Of a DNA stretch of 35,248 bases, positions 3,120-33,548 are shown one piece after another (within the stretch, counting starts at the first letter, position 1; each line of letters begins with the position of its first letter). The stretch comes from Acidobacteriota bacterium (GTDB lineage Bacteria > Acidobacteriota > Polarisedimenticolia > Gp22-AA2). The notes below the pieces were generated by a model that searched no databases, was not told the DNA's origin, and saw only the letters and a program-made list of their open reading frames with translations. A program made the translations under genes and the position numbers. The DNA lies in contig QHXY01000163.1 in NCBI GenBank assembly GCA_003223145.1, forward strand, positions 1 to 35,248, read 5' to 3'.

Positions 3120-4529
3120 GTGGCCGACACCCAGGCGAACTTCGATGTCACCATCATCGGCAGCGGGCCCGGGGGCTACGTCGCCGCCATCCGGGCAGCC
3201 CAGCTCGGTCTGAAGACCGCTCTGGTCGAGAAGTCCCCCGCCCTGGGCGGCACCTGCCTGCACGTCGGCTGCATCCCCACCAAGGCCCTCCTGTACAGCG
3301 CCGAGGTCCTGGACCTGGCCCGCGACGCCGGGCGCTTCGGCGTGAAGACCGGTGAGGTTCGGCTCGATCTCGCGGCGGTCCACAAGCACAAGAGCGATGT
3401 GGTGCGCCGCGACGCCAAGGGGATCGAGTTTCTGATGAAGAAGAACGGCATCACCGTGTACCAGGGTCACGGCCGGCTGAAGGGATCGGGGGCGGTCGAG
3501 GTGGCCACCAGGGACGGCGCCCGACAGCTCCTGCCGTCCAAGAACGTCGTCCTGGCCACCGGTTCGGTCCCCAAGATGCTCCCCGGGCTCAAAGTGGACG
3601 GCACGCGCGTCGTCACCAGCACCGAGGCCCTGGCCCTCGAGTTCGTTCCGAGGACGCTGATGATCCTCGGGGCGGGGGCGGTGGGCGTCGAGTTCGCCTC
3701 GATCTACGCGCGTTTCGGGAGCGCCGTCACGCTCGTCGAGATGCTTCCGAGGGTGCTGCCGATCGAGGACGAGGAGTCGTCGGCCGAGCTGCACAAGGCG
3801 TTCAAGAAGCGCGGCATCGACGTCCGCGTCGGCACCAAGGTGGAGAGCGTGAAAGTCGCCGACAAGGGGGTCGAGGTTCAGGTGCAGTCGGAGAAGGGCG
3901 GCAAAGAGACGCTGAAAGCCGACGTCCTGCTGGTGGCGGTGGGGCGCCGCGCGGTGACAGACGACCTGGGTCTCGAGGGGACCCGGGTGAAGATCGAGCG
4001 CGGCTTCGTGCAGGCGGACGCGCGCATGCGGACCGGCGAGCCCTCGGTGTACGCCATCGGCGATCTCCTGCCGACGCCCGCCCTGGCGCACGTCGCGTCG
4101 CACGAAGGGATCGTCGCGGCCGAGTCGATCGTCGGCAGGAACCCCGCCCCGATCAACTACGATCAGGTCCCCAACTGCACCTACTCGGAGCCGGAGGTTG
4201 CGAGCATCGGGCTCACCGAGCAAACGGCGCGTCAGCGCGGCCACAAGGTGCGCGTCGGTCGCTTCCCGTTCCCCGTGCTCGGCAAGGGGCGCATCATGGC
4301 GACGCAGGAAGGGTTCGTGTAGCTGATCGGCGCCGAGCGCTACGACGAGCTTCTCGGCATCCACATCGTCGGGCCGAGGGCGACCGAGCTGATCGCCGAG
4401 GGGGGCATGGCGCTGCGGCTAGAGTCGACGGTCGAGGACCTGTTCCAGGCGATCCACGCCCACCCGACGTTGTCCGAGGCGATGGGCGAGGCCGCGCTGA
4501 GCCTGCTTTCCCGCGGCATCCATCTTTAA
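3120..4529 (+). pseudogene. lpdA: dihydrolipoamide dehydrogenase (E3), interrupted by an in-frame TAG
   Basis: The E3 flavoprotein reoxidises dihydrolipoyl groups of the 2-oxoacid dehydrogenase complex and passes electrons to NAD+. GTG 3120 follows GGGAGG by 5 bases. The FAD fold GSGPGG (about 14-19), the redox pair Cys46/Cys51 in CLHVGC, and a second Rossmann motif GAGAVGVEFA are present. The frame then meets TAG at 4320-4322 (codon 401), where the family has Lys in GFVK. The same frame continues without any shift to TAA 4527-4529, giving a normal total of 469 codons. The part after TAG holds the dimer-interface domain and the catalytic His448/Glu453 pair (HPTLSE), so the 400-residue product should be inactive unless the codon is read through or is a sequence error. 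TAG is a normal stop for other genes here. Confidence 0.85.
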
Positions 4530-5641: not shown

Positions 5642-6672
5642 ATGCTGGCGAAGGAGGGGAACAGACACCGGCCGGGAGGGGGCGGCCTGCGCGCCGTCCC
5701 GGCGCGGGCCGGTGAGGTTTTGCCGGCGCCGGACGACGCGGCGCTGCTCAAGATGCTCTACTCCATGAAGCTGACGCGCGCCCTGGAGTTCCGCATCGAG
5801 CGGAAGCTCTACCGCCAGGGAAAGATCGTCGGCGGCGTCTACGTGGGGCGCGGCCAGGAGGCGATCTCGGTCGGGGCCGCCATGCACATCCGACGGGGCG
5901 GCGGACAGGACGTGGACGACATCGTCTCGCCCTCGCACCGCGACATGGCGGTGTTCCTCATGCAGGGCGTGTCCCCCCAGAGGATCCTGGCCCAGTACAT
6001 GGGTCGCGCCGCCGGGCTGACGCGCGGCCGGGACGGCAACATGCACATGGGCGATCTGAGGCACCGGCTCGTGGCCTTCATCTCGCACCTCGGCGACAGC
6101 GTCCCCGTCGCGGCCGGGTGCGCCCTGACCTTCAGGCTGCGCGGCACAGACCAGGTTTCCTTCTGCTTTTTCGGAGAGGGTGCCACCAGCCGCGGCGACT
6201 GGCATGAGGGGGTCAACTTCGCGGCGGTGCAGAGGCTGCCGGTGGTGTTCATCTGCAACAACAACCAGTACGCCTACTCGACGCACGTGTCCCGGCAGAT
6301 GCGGGTGAAGCAGGTCTCCGACCGGGCGCGCGGCTATGGCCTACCCGGCGAATCCGCGGACGGCAACGACCCGTTCGCGGTCTTCGACGCGGTCGGCCGT
6401 CGCTCCTGGAGTTCGTCACGTTCCGGATGACGGGACACTCCGCCCACGACGACGCCGGCTACGTGCCGAAGGCCCAGTTCGACGAGTGGGAGCGCAAGGA
6501 CCCGATCCGCCGGTTCCAGGACGAGCTCCTGCGGCGCAGACTGGTCGATGCGGCGGCGCTGCGGGAAATGGAAGCGCGTATCGAGGCCGAGCTGGACGAG
6601 GCGGTGGCCTGGGCGGAGAAACAGCCGTACCCGGAGCCGGAGGAGTGCCTGACGGGTGTCTATCATGAGTAG
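5642..6672 (+). pseudogene. 2-oxoacid dehydrogenase E1 component, alpha subunit (second copy), frameshifted
   Basis: A second alpha subunit, clearly homologous to its neighbour but well diverged. ATG 5642 follows GAGGG by 5 bases. The first frame runs to TGA 6428-6430 and carries FGEGATSRGDWHEG (Glu179 where most have Asp in the GDG motif) and the NNNQYAYST end of the ThDP motif. The rest of the protein (LLEFVTFRMTGHSAHDD onward) continues in the next frame to 6672. Compared with the first copy about 12 codons are missing between DAV and PSLLEF near 6393-6402, so about 34 bases seem to be lost, which explains the shift. Total length would otherwise be about 355 residues. As written the product is cut to 262 residues with a wrong tail. 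Real decay and assembly error are both possible. Confidence 0.85.
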
Positions 6673-6708: not shown

Positions 6709-7686
6709 GTGGCCCTGACGACCTACGTTGAGGCGATCCGGCAGGGGATCTGGGAGGAGATGGAGCGCGACGAGCGCGTCTTCATCCTCGGCGAGGACGT
6801 CGGCATCTACGGCGGCGCCTTCAAGGTCACCGAGGGGATGCTGGAGCGCTTCGGCGAGATGCGCGTCATCGACACGCCGATCTCGGAGTCGGCGATCGTC
6901 GGGGCGGCGATCGGCGCCGCGCTGATGGGCATGCGGCCGATCGCCGAGATGCAGTTCATCGATTTCATCTCCTGTGCCTTCGATCAGATCACCAACTTCG
7001 CCGCCAAGAACCGTTACCGCTGGGGCGCCGGCGTGCCGATCGTCATCCGGGGACCGAGCGGCGGAGGGGTGCACGGCGGGCCGTACCACTCGCAGAACCC
7101 CGAAATGTATTTCGTGCACACCCCCGGTCTCAAAGTCGTCGCGCCGGCGACGGCTTATGACGCGAAGGGTCTCATCAAGGCCGCCATCCGCGACGAGGAC
7201 CCGGTCATTTACCTGGAGCACAAATACCTCTACCGCCGCATCAAGGAGGAGCTCCCGAAAGACGACTACATCGTGCCGATCGGCCGCGCCGCCGTCCGCC
7301 GCGAAGGGAAGGATCTGGCGATCCTGACGTACGGGGCGATGCTGTACCAGGCGCTCGAAGCGGCCGACGTGCTGGCGCGCGAGGCCGGGCTGCAGACGGA
7401 GGTCGTCGACTTGCGCAGCCTGCTGCCTCTCGACAAGGATGCGATCCTGAGCGCGGCGAAGAAGACCGGGAAGGTCCTGGTGGTCCATGAAGACACGCGG
7501 ACAGGCGGCATCGCGGGCGAGATCGCCGCGATCATCAACGAGGAGGTCTTCGAGTACCTGGACGGCCCGGTCCTGCGGGTGACGGCGCCCGACACGCCGG
7601 TGCCCTACAGTCCGCCGCTGGAGGAGTTCTTTCTCCCCAACAAGGAGAAAATACTCAAGGCCGCGAGACAGTTAGCGGCCTATTAG
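6709..7686 (+). CDS. 2-oxoacid dehydrogenase E1 component, beta subunit
   Basis: A 325-residue transketolase-type subunit that pairs with E1-alpha to form the ThDP site. The N-terminal pyrimidine-binding part has FILGEDVGIYGGAFKVTEG and DTPISE, with the conserved Glu of the SE pair that activates the cofactor. GPSGGGVHGGPYHSQ and the C-terminal transketolase domain (LRSLLPLDKDAI, HEDTRTGGIAGEI) follow the family exactly. GTG 6709 is chosen because GGAGGG (6697-6702) lies 6 bases before it. The gene is intact, unlike the E3 and second alpha genes of the same operon. The TAG stop is inside a short stem followed by T residues. Confidence 0.93.
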   Translation: MALTTYVEAIRQGIWEEMERDERVFILGEDVGIYGGAFKVTEGMLERFGEMRVIDTPISESAIVGAAIGAALMGMRPIAEMQFIDFISCAFDQITNFAAKNRYRWGAGVPIVIRGPSGGGVHGGPYHSQNPEMYFVHTPGLKVVAPATAYDAKGLIKAAIRDEDPVIYLEHKYLYRRIKEELPKDDYIVPIGRAAVRREGKDLAILTYGAMLYQALEAADVLAREAGLQTEVVDLRSLLPLDKDAILSAAKKTGKVLVVHEDTRTGGIAGEIAAIINEEVFEYLDGPVLRVTAPDTPVPYSPPLEEFFLPNKEKILKAARQLAAY

Positions 7687-7706: not shown

Positions 7707-7750
7707 TCCGGGCTGCAGCCGACGCTGGACATCGCGCGGCTGAGCCCGGG
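7707..7750 (+). ncRNA. candidate structured leader element, copy 1 (upstream of E2)
   Basis: In the 99-base gap before the E2 gene, bases 7707-7714 pair with 7743-7750 (last pair T-G), G7715 is unpaired, CAGCCG 7716-7721 pairs with CGGCTG 7737-7742, A7722 is unpaired, and 7723-7725 pair with 7734-7736 around an 8-base loop. The same design, with the same two bulges and the same core, occurs at 32586-32663. The element ends 35 bases before ATG 7786. It resembles a cis-acting RNA; a ligand or protein partner is unknown. Confidence 0.55.
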
Positions 7751-7785: not shown

Positions 7786-9189
7786 ATGCGGGTCGACGTG
7801 ATCATGCCTCAGATGGGGGAAAGCATCGCGGAGGGGACCCTCACCCGGTGGCTCAAGAAGCCCGGCGACAAGGTGGCCCGCGACGAGCCGATCTTCGAGA
7901 TCTCGACCGACAAGGTGGACGCGGAAATCCCGTCGCCCGCGGCCGGGACGCTGGCTGAGATCAAGGTGCAGGAGGGCCAAACCGTCCCGATCAACACCGT
8001 GGTGGCGCAGATCGAGTCGGAGGCGGGGACCGCGGTGGCGGCGGGGAAGACAGCCCCCGCTCCCGAAGCGGCGGCGAAAGCCGCGCCCGCCGCGGCTCCC
8101 GCCGCGGGGCTGGCCCCGTCGCGCCAGGGCGGTCCGACCGACGGGCGCGAGCGCGACATGGCTCCGCGGCCGGCGGCCGCGTCCGTGGTCTTCGCCGGAG
8201 CGCCGGCGGCGGGTGCCGGGGAGATCCCGAGGGCCGCCTCGCTGATCGGCTCAGGGGCGACCGTCGAGGACCTCCGCCGGGTCCGGTCCTCACCCGTGGT
8301 CCGCAAGATTGCCCAGGAGCACAATGTCGACATCTCGCGCATCCGCGGCACCGGTCTCTCCGGCCGCGTCACCAAGAAAGACATCCTCGAGGCGCTCGAG
8401 GGCGACGCCGCGACCGCTTCCGCGGCCCCGGCGCGGTCCGCCGCCGCCACCCCGGCGCGCGCCGCCGCGCCGGCGCCGGTCTACGCCCCCGGCGAGCGTG
8501 TCTCCGTCGTGCCGATGAGCCCCATGCGCAAGAAGATCGCCGAGCACATGGTCATGAGCCGGCGGACCTCGGCCCATGTCACCACCGTCTTCGAGGTCGA
8601 CATGAGCCGGGTGATGCGTCTGCGCGAGGAGAACCAGAGGGCCTTCCAGGAGCGCCACGGCGTGAAGCTGACGCCGACCCCGTTCATGGTGAAGGCCGCG
8701 GTCGAGGCGCTGAAGACGTTCCCCGAGGTAAACGCCTCGATCGACGGCGACAACATCGTGTACAAGAAGGACATCCATGTCGGCATCGCCGTGGCCCTCG
8801 ACTGGGGCCTGATCGTGCCGGTGGTGAAGCATGCCGACGACCTCAGTCTGTCCGGCATCGCCAAGGTGGTCACCGATCTGGCGGAGCGCGCGCGCTCCAA
8901 GAAGCTCACCCCGGAGGAGGTGCAGGGGGGCACCTTCACCATCACCAATCCCGGCATCTTCGGCAGCCTGTTCTGCACGCCGATCATCAACCAGCCGCAG
9001 GTGGCGATCCTCGGCGTCGGCGCGATCCAGAAGCGGGTGATCGTGGTCGAGGACGCCATCGCCATCCGTCCGATGGTGTTCCTGGCGCTGTCGTTCGATC
9101 ACCGACTGATCGACGGCGCGGTGGCCGACCAGTTCATGGCGCACATCAAGTCGACGCTCGTGGAAGGGAAGTTCACCGAGATTGTCTGA
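7786..9189 (+). CDS. 2-oxoacid dehydrogenase E2 component (dihydrolipoamide acyltransferase)
   Basis: A 467-residue E2 core protein that carries the lipoyl arm and transfers the acyl group to CoA. One lipoyl domain is at about 2-77, with the modified Lys43 in STDKVD. An Ala/Pro-rich linker, the peripheral E1/E3-binding domain (about 168-205, SSPVVRKIAQEHNVDI...GRVTKKDI), another linker and the catalytic domain (about 240-467) follow. The catalytic motif is FDHRLIDG with His439 and Asp443. ATG 7786 follows GGAGAAGGAG closely. A start at GTG 7750 would add 12 polar residues and overlap the leader element, so I reject it. The stop overlaps lipB by 8 bases. Confidence 0.94.
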   Translation: MRVDVIMPQMGESIAEGTLTRWLKKPGDKVARDEPIFEISTDKVDAEIPSPAAGTLAEIKVQEGQTVPINTVVAQIESEAGTAVAAGKTAPAPEAAAKAAPAAAPAAGLAPSRQGGPTDGRERDMAPRPAAASVVFAGAPAAGAGEIPRAASLIGSGATVEDLRRVRSSPVVRKIAQEHNVDISRIRGTGLSGRVTKKDILEALEGDAATASAAPARSAAATPARAAAPAPVYAPGERVSVVPMSPMRKKIAEHMVMSRRTSAHVTTVFEVDMSRVMRLREENQRAFQERHGVKLTPTPFMVKAAVEALKTFPEVNASIDGDNIVYKKDIHVGIAVALDWGLIVPVVKHADDLSLSGIAKVVTDLAERARSKKLTPEEVQGGTFTITNPGIFGSLFCTPIINQPQVAILGVGAIQKRVIVVEDAIAIRPMVFLALSFDHRLIDGAVADQFMAHIKSTLVEGKFTEIV

Positions 9190-31411: not shown

Positions 31412-32575
31412 ATGCCCCTGGCCGCTCCTCTGGCCCTCAGCCTGTTCTATCTGACATCGTTCGCCGTTCTGGGCGTCTACCTGCCGTACTTCAATCTCTA
31501 TCTCGACGCTCTCGGTTTCTCCGGACTGCAGATCGGTCTGTTGACGATGCTCCTGCCGCTCTCGGGCGCCCTCGTTCCGACCTTCGGCGGCATGCTGGCC
31601 GACCGGTTGGGGTGGCGACGCGGGCTGGTGATCGGCTCGAGCCTGATGGCGCTTGTGGCCTTCGGCTTTGTCCCCGGTGTGCGGACCTTCCCCGCGATGG
31701 TCGCGGTCGTCGCCGTCTACGCGGCGCTGCGCGCGCCGGCGCTGCCGTTGATCGAGGCCGCCGCGATGGAGGTCTCCGAGGCGGGCGGCCCGCATTACGG
31801 GCGGATGCGCGCCTGGGGATCGCTCGCGTTCATCGTCATGGCCCTGGGGACCGGACCGGTCGTCGCACGCTGGGGGGCGCGTGCCGCTCTGTTCATGATC
31901 ATCGTCCTGCTCGCCCTGAACGTCCTGTCCACGCTGATGCTGCCCGGTGAGAAGCGGACGACGGTCCCCGCCGGGGCGACCGGGAGCCTCCGGCATTTCG
32001 TCCGACGACCGCGGATCCTCCTGTTCCTCCTGGCCTGCCTGCTGTCCCAGGCGTCGCACGGCCCGTACTACGTCTTCTACAGCATCTATCTCGAGAAATC
32101 CGGCTACCCGCCGCAGGCGATCGGCGTCTTGTGGGGCATCGCGGTTGCCTGCGAGATCGTCGCGATGCTCCTGATGCCCACCATCCTCGGCCGTCTCGGG
32201 ACGCTGCCGACGATGGGCGCGTCGGTTCTTCTGGCCGCGGTTCGCTGGTGGGTCTGCGCCACCAGCGCGGCGCCCGCGGCGATGATCCTGGCGCAGACCC
32301 TGCACGCCGCCACCTACGCCGCCTTCCATGTAGCGGCCGTCACCCACACGCACCACCTGTTTGGCGCGGAGCGCCGTTCGAGCGGACAGGCGATCTACGG
32401 ATCGGCGACGTACGGGGGCGGCAACATGCTCGGCATGCTCGTGAGCGGCGTCCTGTACGACCGCTCCGGAATGGCCGGCTTGTTCGCCGGGGCGGCGGTC
32501 GTTGCGCTGGCCTCCGGCCTCCTGATCGTCGCCGTGTCACGCCGGGAGGCTCGGGGGGCTCGATGGCAAGTATAA
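31412..32575 (+). CDS. major facilitator superfamily transporter (MFS_1-like, HcaT/LacY-related)
   Basis: A 387-residue protein with about 12 hydrophobic segments. YFNLYLDALGFSGLQIGLL at the N-terminus and GGMLADRLGWRRGL (motif A) are typical of the MFS_1-like family that includes the HcaT 3-phenylpropionate carrier. The second half has FYSIYLEKSGYPPQAIGVLWGIAVACEI and a His-rich loop THTHHLFG. The substrate is unknown. ATG 31412 has no ribosome-binding site but is positioned for leaderless translation. The TAA stop lies inside the TATAAT of the following gene. Confidence 0.87.
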   Translation: MPLAAPLALSLFYLTSFAVLGVYLPYFNLYLDALGFSGLQIGLLTMLLPLSGALVPTFGGMLADRLGWRRGLVIGSSLMALVAFGFVPGVRTFPAMVAVVAVYAALRAPALPLIEAAAMEVSEAGGPHYGRMRAWGSLAFIVMALGTGPVVARWGARAALFMIIVLLALNVLSTLMLPGEKRTTVPAGATGSLRHFVRRPRILLFLLACLLSQASHGPYYVFYSIYLEKSGYPPQAIGVLWGIAVACEIVAMLLMPTILGRLGTLPTMGASVLLAAVRWWVCATSAAPAAMILAQTLHAATYAAFHVAAVTHTHHLFGAERRSSGQAIYGSATYGGGNMLGMLVSGVLYDRSGMAGLFAGAAVVALASGLLIVAVSRREARGARWQV

Positions 32576-32576
32576 T
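32571..32576 (+). promoter_or_regulatory. -10 element of the mqnD-like operon
   Basis: A perfect TATAAT overlapping the stop codon of the MFS gene. No -35 match is seen. The expected transcript starts at about 32583, three bases before the structured leader element. Confidence 0.5.
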
Positions 32577-32585
32577 TTAAGAACG

Positions 32586-32663
32586 TCCGGCATGCAGCCG
32601 ACGGCGGGCGGGCCGCCGGGGTTGCAGCCTGGTCTGGCGCGGCCCGCCGCGGCTGATGCCGGA
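32586..32663 (+). ncRNA. candidate structured leader element, copy 2 (upstream of mqnD-like gene)
   Basis: Bases 32586-32593 pair with 32656-32663, G32594 is unpaired, CAGCCG 32595-32600 pairs with CGGCTG 32650-32655, A32601 is unpaired, and 32602-32609 pair with 32642-32649; the 32-base apical part can fold further. The design and core are those of the element at 7707-7750. Two outer pairs differ by compensatory changes (G-C to C-G, C-G to A-T). It ends 33 bases before ATG 32697. It has the position of a cis-regulatory RNA at the 5' end of the mRNA. Confidence 0.6.
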
Positions 32664-32696: not shown

Positions 32697-33548
32697 ATGA
32701 ACACACAGCGCAGTCCTCGCACGGTTCGGTTCGGTCACAGCCCTGACCCGGACGACGCCTTCATGTTCTACGGGCTGGCCTCCGGGAAGGTGGCGGCGGA
32801 CGGCTACGAGATCGTCCAGGTCCTGCAGGACATCGAGAGCCTCAACCGCATGGCCCTGGAGGGGGCGATCGAGGTCACGGCGGTGTCGTTCCACGCCTAC
32901 GCCTACCTCTCGGACCGTTACCTGCTCCTGCCGTGCGGCGCGAGCATGGGGGACGGCTACGGGCCGATCGTGATCGCGCGCCGGCCGGCGACCCTCGACG
33001 AGGTGAGGGACATGACGATCGCGGTGCCGGGACGGCTGACGTCGGCCAGCCTGGCGCTGCGTCTGGCCCTGGGCGACGTTCGGACCGAGATCGTTCCGTT
33101 CGATCGGATCCTGGAGTCGGTGGCGGGCGGAGCGTCGGAGGCGGGGCTCCTGATCCACGAGGGCCAGCTGACCTACGGGCAGAGCGGTGCGCACAAGGTC
33201 CTCGATCTGGGAGAGTGGTGGAAGCGCGAGACCGGGCTGCCGCTTCCCCTGGGGGGGAACGCCATTCGCCGGGACCTCGGGCCGGAGGCGATCACCGCGA
33301 TCGGCGCGGCGTTCAGGAGGAGCATCGAGTACGGATTCACCCACCGCCGGGAGGCCCTGGACTACGCGCTCGATTTCGGCCGTGGACTCGCCCGGCCGCT
33401 CGCCGACCGCTTCGTCGGCATGTACGTCAACCAGGACACCCTCGACTACGGCCCGCGCGGGCGCCGGGCGGTCGAGACATTTCTGACGCGGGGCCACCAG
33501 ATCGGCGTCATCCCGCACCGCGCGCCGATCGAGTTCGCCGTGCTATGA
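32697..33548 (+). CDS. MqnA/MqnD-family periplasmic-binding-fold protein
   Basis: A 283-residue protein related to MqnD (1,4-dihydroxy-6-naphthoate synthase) and MqnA of the futalosine route to menaquinone. FGHSPDPDDAFMFYGLASGK near the N-terminus, the EVTAVSFHAYAYLSDRYLLLPCGASMGDGYGPIVIA block and LLIHEGQLTYG with its conserved Glu and Gln fit the family. Some members are uncharacterised and may not make menaquinone; no other mqn gene is in view. The frame is open from ATG 32592, but that is inside the leader hairpin, and ATG 32697 gives the family start. It overlaps the next gene by 4 bases (ATGA). Confidence 0.82.
   Translation: MNTQRSPRTVRFGHSPDPDDAFMFYGLASGKVAADGYEIVQVLQDIESLNRMALEGAIEVTAVSFHAYAYLSDRYLLLPCGASMGDGYGPIVIARRPATLDEVRDMTIAVPGRLTSASLALRLALGDVRTEIVPFDRILESVAGGASEAGLLIHEGQLTYGQSGAHKVLDLGEWWKRETGLPLPLGGNAIRRDLGPEAITAIGAAFRRSIEYGFTHRREALDYALDFGRGLARPLADRFVGMYVNQDTLDYGPRGRRAVETFLTRGHQIGVIPHRAPIEFAVL

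Follow-up and report, generated by a model that had tools for sequence, protein, structure and literature searches.

The two bulged hairpins in the window, the whole 35,248-nt stretch of Acidobacteriota DNA analysed here, belong to a small and unevenly distributed family of stem-loops with the fold of integron attC sites and without their R boxes. Integron attC sites are the recombination sites of cassettes. On balance, we lean towards the view that attC-derived hairpins were inserted into native transcription units and kept there as mRNA-end structures. The two copies and their neighbouring features are:

7707..7750, + strand: copy 1, attC-type bulged hairpin in the E1beta-E2 intergenic leader (sequence, fold)
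7707-7714/7743-7750: outer stem of copy 1, 8 bp including one T-G pair
7715, + strand: extrahelical G of copy 1, at the place of the first attC extrahelical base, 5' arm
7716-7721 (CAGCCG)/7737-7742 (CGGCTG): core stem of copy 1, 6 bp
7722, + strand: extrahelical A of copy 1, 7 nt past the G, at the place of the second attC extrahelical base
7723-7725/7734-7736: inner stem of copy 1, 3 bp
7786..9189, + strand: E2 gene, lipoyl acyltransferase of a 2-oxo acid dehydrogenase complex (translation, orthologs)
32571-32576, + strand: TATAAT, probable -10 box of mqnD, overlapping the MFS stop codon, 9 nt before copy 2
32586..32663, + strand: copy 2, attC-type bulged hairpin with a long terminal stem-loop (sequence, fold)
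32586-32593/32656-32663: outer stem of copy 2
32594: unpaired G of copy 2
32595-32600 (CAGCCG)/32650-32655 (CGGCTG): core stem of copy 2
32601: unpaired A of copy 2
32602-32609/32642-32649: inner stem of copy 2, 8 bp
32697..33548, + strand: mqnD-like gene, menaquinone biosynthesis by the futalosine pathway (translation, orthologs)

In a 2-oxo acid dehydrogenase operon, copy 1 follows the E1beta gene and stands 35 nt ahead of the ATG of the E2 gene at 7786. Orthologs of E2 are present in 11 of the 12 genomes of the host's order. We saw no clear promoter in this leader, and copy 1 may be internal to the operon transcript. Copy 2 stands between an MFS gene and, 33 nt downstream, the ATG at 32697 of a gene that we take to be mqnD from its sequence and general knowledge. 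The initial annotation had described the same bulged hairpin in both leaders, and sequence and fold bear out its stems, bulges and distances to the start codons. When compared with 200 shuffles each, the folds gave z-scores of -3.79 (copy 1) and -3.90 (copy 2), and no shuffle was as good. The core pattern with a gap matched once in the window and never in 100 shuffles; copy 2, whose loop is too long for the gapped pattern, is outside this count. An alignment of the two copies by MAFFT was left out because it misaligned the palindrome. Rfam, searched at gathering and permissive thresholds, returned nothing relevant for the hairpins (a true attC array was also without a match), in line with the annotation's remark that they fit none of the familiar riboswitch consensus patterns. 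We rejected a plain intrinsic terminator, since neither window copy is followed by a T run. Both hairpins are confirmed as real and as the same structure, neither chance nor a known riboswitch. What the annotation had overlooked were the TATAAT at 32571-32576, the identity of the fold with that of attC, and the presence or absence of the hairpins in relatives.

Running the core pattern on 60 related genomes revealed more hairpins, whose outer stems, which lie outside the pattern, pair with differing sequences. With a covariance model (R1), about 50 sites turned up across 41 genomes of the class. Read with their flanks, these are of two kinds. The first are ordinary integron attC sites, in same-strand arrays, in which (C)CTAAC, similar to R'', precedes the hairpin and GCGTTRGRC follows it (e.g. 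L053, L054 and L055). The second have the same core without boxes, often a -10 box just upstream and a gene just downstream; they include both window copies, and we refer to them as leader hairpins. Genomes of the host's family carry about one to four of these each, upstream of unrelated genes and nearly all in sense. In the genomes searched, box-less leader sites were found only in the host's order and in one more family of the class, with the best 20-150 candidates scored per genome, such that weak copies may be missed, and with the window's genome 88% complete. One candidate in the latter (G000:C288, 20 bits) was dropped as too weak. We also scanned 84,980 species for a -10 box followed by a hairpin. 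The box-less type appeared only in Acidobacteria MAGs, and the remaining matches were ordinary attC sites beside a TATA or apparently chance. Contigs that recur in a scan of named genomes assign the group to Acidobacteria MAGs of groundwater and soil. In the literature searched, we found no description of R-box-less attC hairpins in leaders.

By definition, attC sites have two or three extrahelical bases on the R''-L'' arm, among them a G within the L'' box and, 6-8 nt downstream of it, a second base that is commonly T; their terminal structure is variable (PMC2727003). The window hairpins fit this definition: both extrahelical bases lie on the 5' arm, the A coming 7 nt after the G, and the terminal stems are 3 or 8 bp long. 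The fold common to the family consists of TGCAGCCGACG...CGCGGCTGA, an unpaired G, then, 7 nt further along the 5' arm, an unpaired A or G, and a terminal stem that varies. The first extrahelical base is G in 33 of the 33 hairpins collected by regular expression. Leader hairpins share with attC the 6-bp CAGCCG/CGGCTG stem, in an imperfect inverted repeat with an L''/L' stem, the location of both extrahelical bases on the 5' (R''-L'') arm at 7 nt from each other, the variable inner stem (from 3 bp to a long stem-loop) and the orientation relative to the upstream ORF. The second extrahelical base is A or G in leader hairpins; the published definition of attC gives T as the common one. A covariance model built only of nine attC sites from four phyla, with R boxes or recognisable remains (R3), matched copy 1 at E = 3.5e-13, copy 2 at E = 1.3e-5 and all other leader hairpins tested, with an attC sample that is not neutral because its sites were found via the core pattern or a model derived from the leader hairpins. 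Five of the nine come from Bacteroidetes, Kangiellaceae, Marinobacter and Parachlamydia records. A model of leader hairpins only (R2) matched array attC and canonical attC sites across Acidobacteria with E-values from 1e-5 to 5e-11; in one of these searches, the attC sites scored down to 3e-10. When R2 was run on 297 genomes of the phylum, the sites that we read outside the class were attC with R boxes or their remains.

The leader hairpins depart from attC in their outer parts. None of them has the pair of R'' (RYYYAAC) and R' (GTTRRRY), and the window copies have neither box; the leader site G005:C200 carries an R''-like CCCTAAC. The unpaired central spacer of attC is also missing, as pairing in the outer stem continues up to 8 bp and no R stem follows. 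Among 33 distinct hairpins, the outer stem measures 6-7 bp in all 15 that have AAC and GTT properly placed, whereas it is mostly 8 bp in leader hairpins, of which none has both boxes. AttC sites occur in cassette arrays and have an outer stem of 6 bp; leader hairpins are single sites in housekeeping transcription units, usually with 8 bp. Pairing of the attC spacer lowered recombination about 8.5e4-fold (PMC2727003). Since they lack the R boxes and have a paired spacer, leader hairpins should be inert in recombination.

The hairpins occupy particular positions in transcription units. At eight sites, representing six independent promoters, as one gene was counted in three species, the distance from the end of a TATAAT, TATACT or TATGAT to the stem is 6-9 nt; at G007:C163 one stem mismatch results in a computed distance of 12. 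By comparison, TATAAT occurs twice per strand in the 35-kb window. The -10 boxes served to infer transcription starts. At other sites the stem begins 0-2 nt past a stop codon (E2 in G006, G007:C106 and the 3' hairpins of a 193-aa gene in G001 and G004). All these statistics rest on about 11 independent loci, the copies being few. Nearly all hairpins are sense to a gene, and one (G004:C74) faces no gene on its own strand. In G012:C212 (L061) we observed about five tandem attC-type hairpins on the reverse strand, at about 1450-1700, in a run that begins directly past a TATAAT and stops before a molybdopterin oxidoreductase gene.

The genes downstream, named by sequence inspection, are E2, mqnD, DUF362-like, a response regulator, moaA-like, gcvT-like, dnaJ, deoxynucleoside-kinase-like, a quinone oxidoreductase, the molybdopterin oxidoreductase and the 193-aa gene. 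The initial annotation had suggested a covariance-model search for more copies, and proposed that a preference of these copies for certain genes would support a cis-regulatory RNA. The search did find copies ahead of genes, in sense and covarying, but no gene preference. We found no support for a riboswitch-like RNA with such a preference and rejected it: the hairpin stands ahead of unrelated genes, and congeners differ in whether a given leader carries it. One could still suppose a cis-regulatory RNA that recognises a protein or ligand, has no link to integrons and resembles attC through convergence, which would account for the sense orientation ahead of genes, the 5'-end position and the covariation around invariant unpaired bases. 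We regard this as improbable, as the downstream genes have no common pathway, the hairpin is missing in close orthologs and found also past stop codons at gene ends, and the match to attC extends to both bulges and the 6-bp core.

The comparison of orthologous leaders reveals how irregular the presence of the hairpin is. For mqnD, it was found in the window's genome only and is missing in G001, G002, G004, G005 and G007. The TATAAT is retained in four of these hairpin-less leaders (G002, G004, G005 and G007), which indicates that the TATAAT at 32571-32576 is native. For E2, hairpins are present in the leaders of G000, G003, G004 and G006 and absent from those of G001, G002 and G005. On the E2 tree, which has moderate support, presence and absence are scattered and split three of three sister pairs, such that the hairpin must have been gained or lost several times. 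An insertion would behave in this way, an ancestral riboswitch would not. The 193-aa gene has a promoter without hairpin in G002 and G006, and a hairpin in G001, G003 and G004. In two of the latter (L125 at G001:C105 and L121 at G004:C18), an attC-type hairpin lies 9 nt past the -10 box and a second one, of the TGGAG type, immediately behind the stop codon, while G002 and G006 have neither. Hairpins of the TGGAG type are also among the attC sites found elsewhere in the phylum. The leaders are too diverged for the exact ends of the insertions or target duplications to be read.

The structure itself seems to be under selection. Five stem pairs have changed on both sides among the four E2 leaders, where 95% of the cells pair against 28-45% in slid controls. 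Among 14 leader hairpins, eight pairs have changed on both sides and 97% are paired, a figure partly biased since some of the sites came from the structural model. These compensatory changes, in the family and in the four orthologous E2 leaders, uphold the earlier proposal of a conserved structured element ahead of start codons. Template-switch repair of palindromes can also yield compensatory pairs, but it would tend to erase the two bulges, and these are kept throughout.

Covariation also bears on whether the leader hairpins are orphan attC sites in decay. Single orphan attC sites are acknowledged as possible (PMC9024848). Short or empty cassettes may have inserted by chance outside integrons and lost their R boxes, leaving hairpins without function; this would explain the attC core in common, the patchy presence, the degenerate attC cluster in the same genome and the CCCTAAC at G005:C200. 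However, such decay should not spare the L stem and the bulges any more than the R boxes. The stem, the two bulges and their polarity on the 5' arm have nevertheless been preserved, and the outer stem is longer than that of attC. It also fits poorly with the compensatory stem changes between orthologs and with the clustering of starts 6-9 nt past -10 boxes. We consider such decay rather unlikely, while giving it appreciable weight. Leader hairpins resemble CALIN and orphan attC (in IntegronFinder terms) in being attC-like sites distant from an integrase, but the latter keep R boxes and follow cassette ORFs, whereas the former are box-less and come after -10 boxes or native stop codons.

We then considered what may have moved the hairpins. 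Of 41 genomes of the class, 23 encode a full-length IntI above the curated threshold, congeners included, and congeners carry attC arrays along with IntI. The assembly of the window's genome has no full-length intI; it has three attC sites with degenerate R' boxes on the - strand of another contig (L181, G000:C277, at 3333-3419, 6360-6445 and 7431-7513). Y1 transposases (IS200/IS605, RAYT; PF01797) were found in none of the 12 genomes of the order, with positive controls. IntI is thus a candidate mobiliser of the leader hairpins, given its presence in congeners, the degenerate attC in the window's genome and the lack of Y1/RAYT in the order. The initial annotation had also considered a dispersed palindromic repeat. 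The sites are indeed dispersed and insertion-like, but they are rare, oriented and of attC architecture, in an order without REP-type transposase. A REP- or MITE-like DNA element, with a transposase that recognises bulged hairpins as its mobiliser, would match the dispersed, palindromic and patchy sites and the tandem run past the TATAAT in G012:C212; REP/BIME too are dispersed bulged palindromes, at times in tandem runs. Yet leader hairpins are few and mostly in one orientation to genes, and the order lacks RAYT/Y1 transposases, which makes this origin very unlikely.

Our preferred reading, insertion of attC-derived hairpins followed by retention at mRNA ends, can be put as a sequence of steps. 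The family would consist of attC-type stem-loops with the L''/L' stem, two extrahelical bases and a variable end, without R''/R' cleavage boxes, and would descend from attC. In one class of Acidobacteriota, the hairpins would have inserted in sense, possibly aided by the integron integrase, at the transcription start or directly past a stop codon, and would then have been retained. At or near the 5' end of the mRNA, a hairpin may hinder 5'-end-dependent decay, tune ribosome access, or both. Such a role at mRNA ends would be the most probable use of the leader hairpins and fits their position. AttC hairpins in mRNA impede ribosomes (PMC8876359), and mRNA with a hairpin at its 5' end resists RppH and is more stable (PMC3997798). 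Like ompA-type 5' stem-loops, leader hairpins would place a stable stem at the beginning of the mRNA or close to it, ahead of the Shine-Dalgarno site, a position deduced from the -10 boxes; they differ from these in being a family conserved in sequence and bulges with mobile behaviour.

If this is true, attC hairpins spread and serve outside integrons, at the starts and ends of housekeeping transcripts, and vary between congeners. A broader possibility, to which we give limited credence, is that gene-less attC hairpins, spread by IntI or another single-strand route, were domesticated at transcript ends, or else that attC arose from mRNA hairpins. The latter would bear on the origin of attC. 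In any case, attC-like matches outside arrays need to be checked for R boxes.

Some attC-like sites were observed in other settings. A contig of a Parachlamydia sp. MAG (L080, JAJFUZ010000369.1) has several attC sites on one strand, at about 737, 2589, 4267, 4996 and 6455. Provided that the contig was binned correctly, they point to an integron or a cluster of cassettes in a Chlamydiae MAG. At two other loci (L025 at G030:C33 and L062 at G012:C251), the R' position after attC-like sites is taken by GTGTGCCCAGCATGG/GTGTGCTCAGCATGG, a putative 5' end of a group IIC-attC intron.
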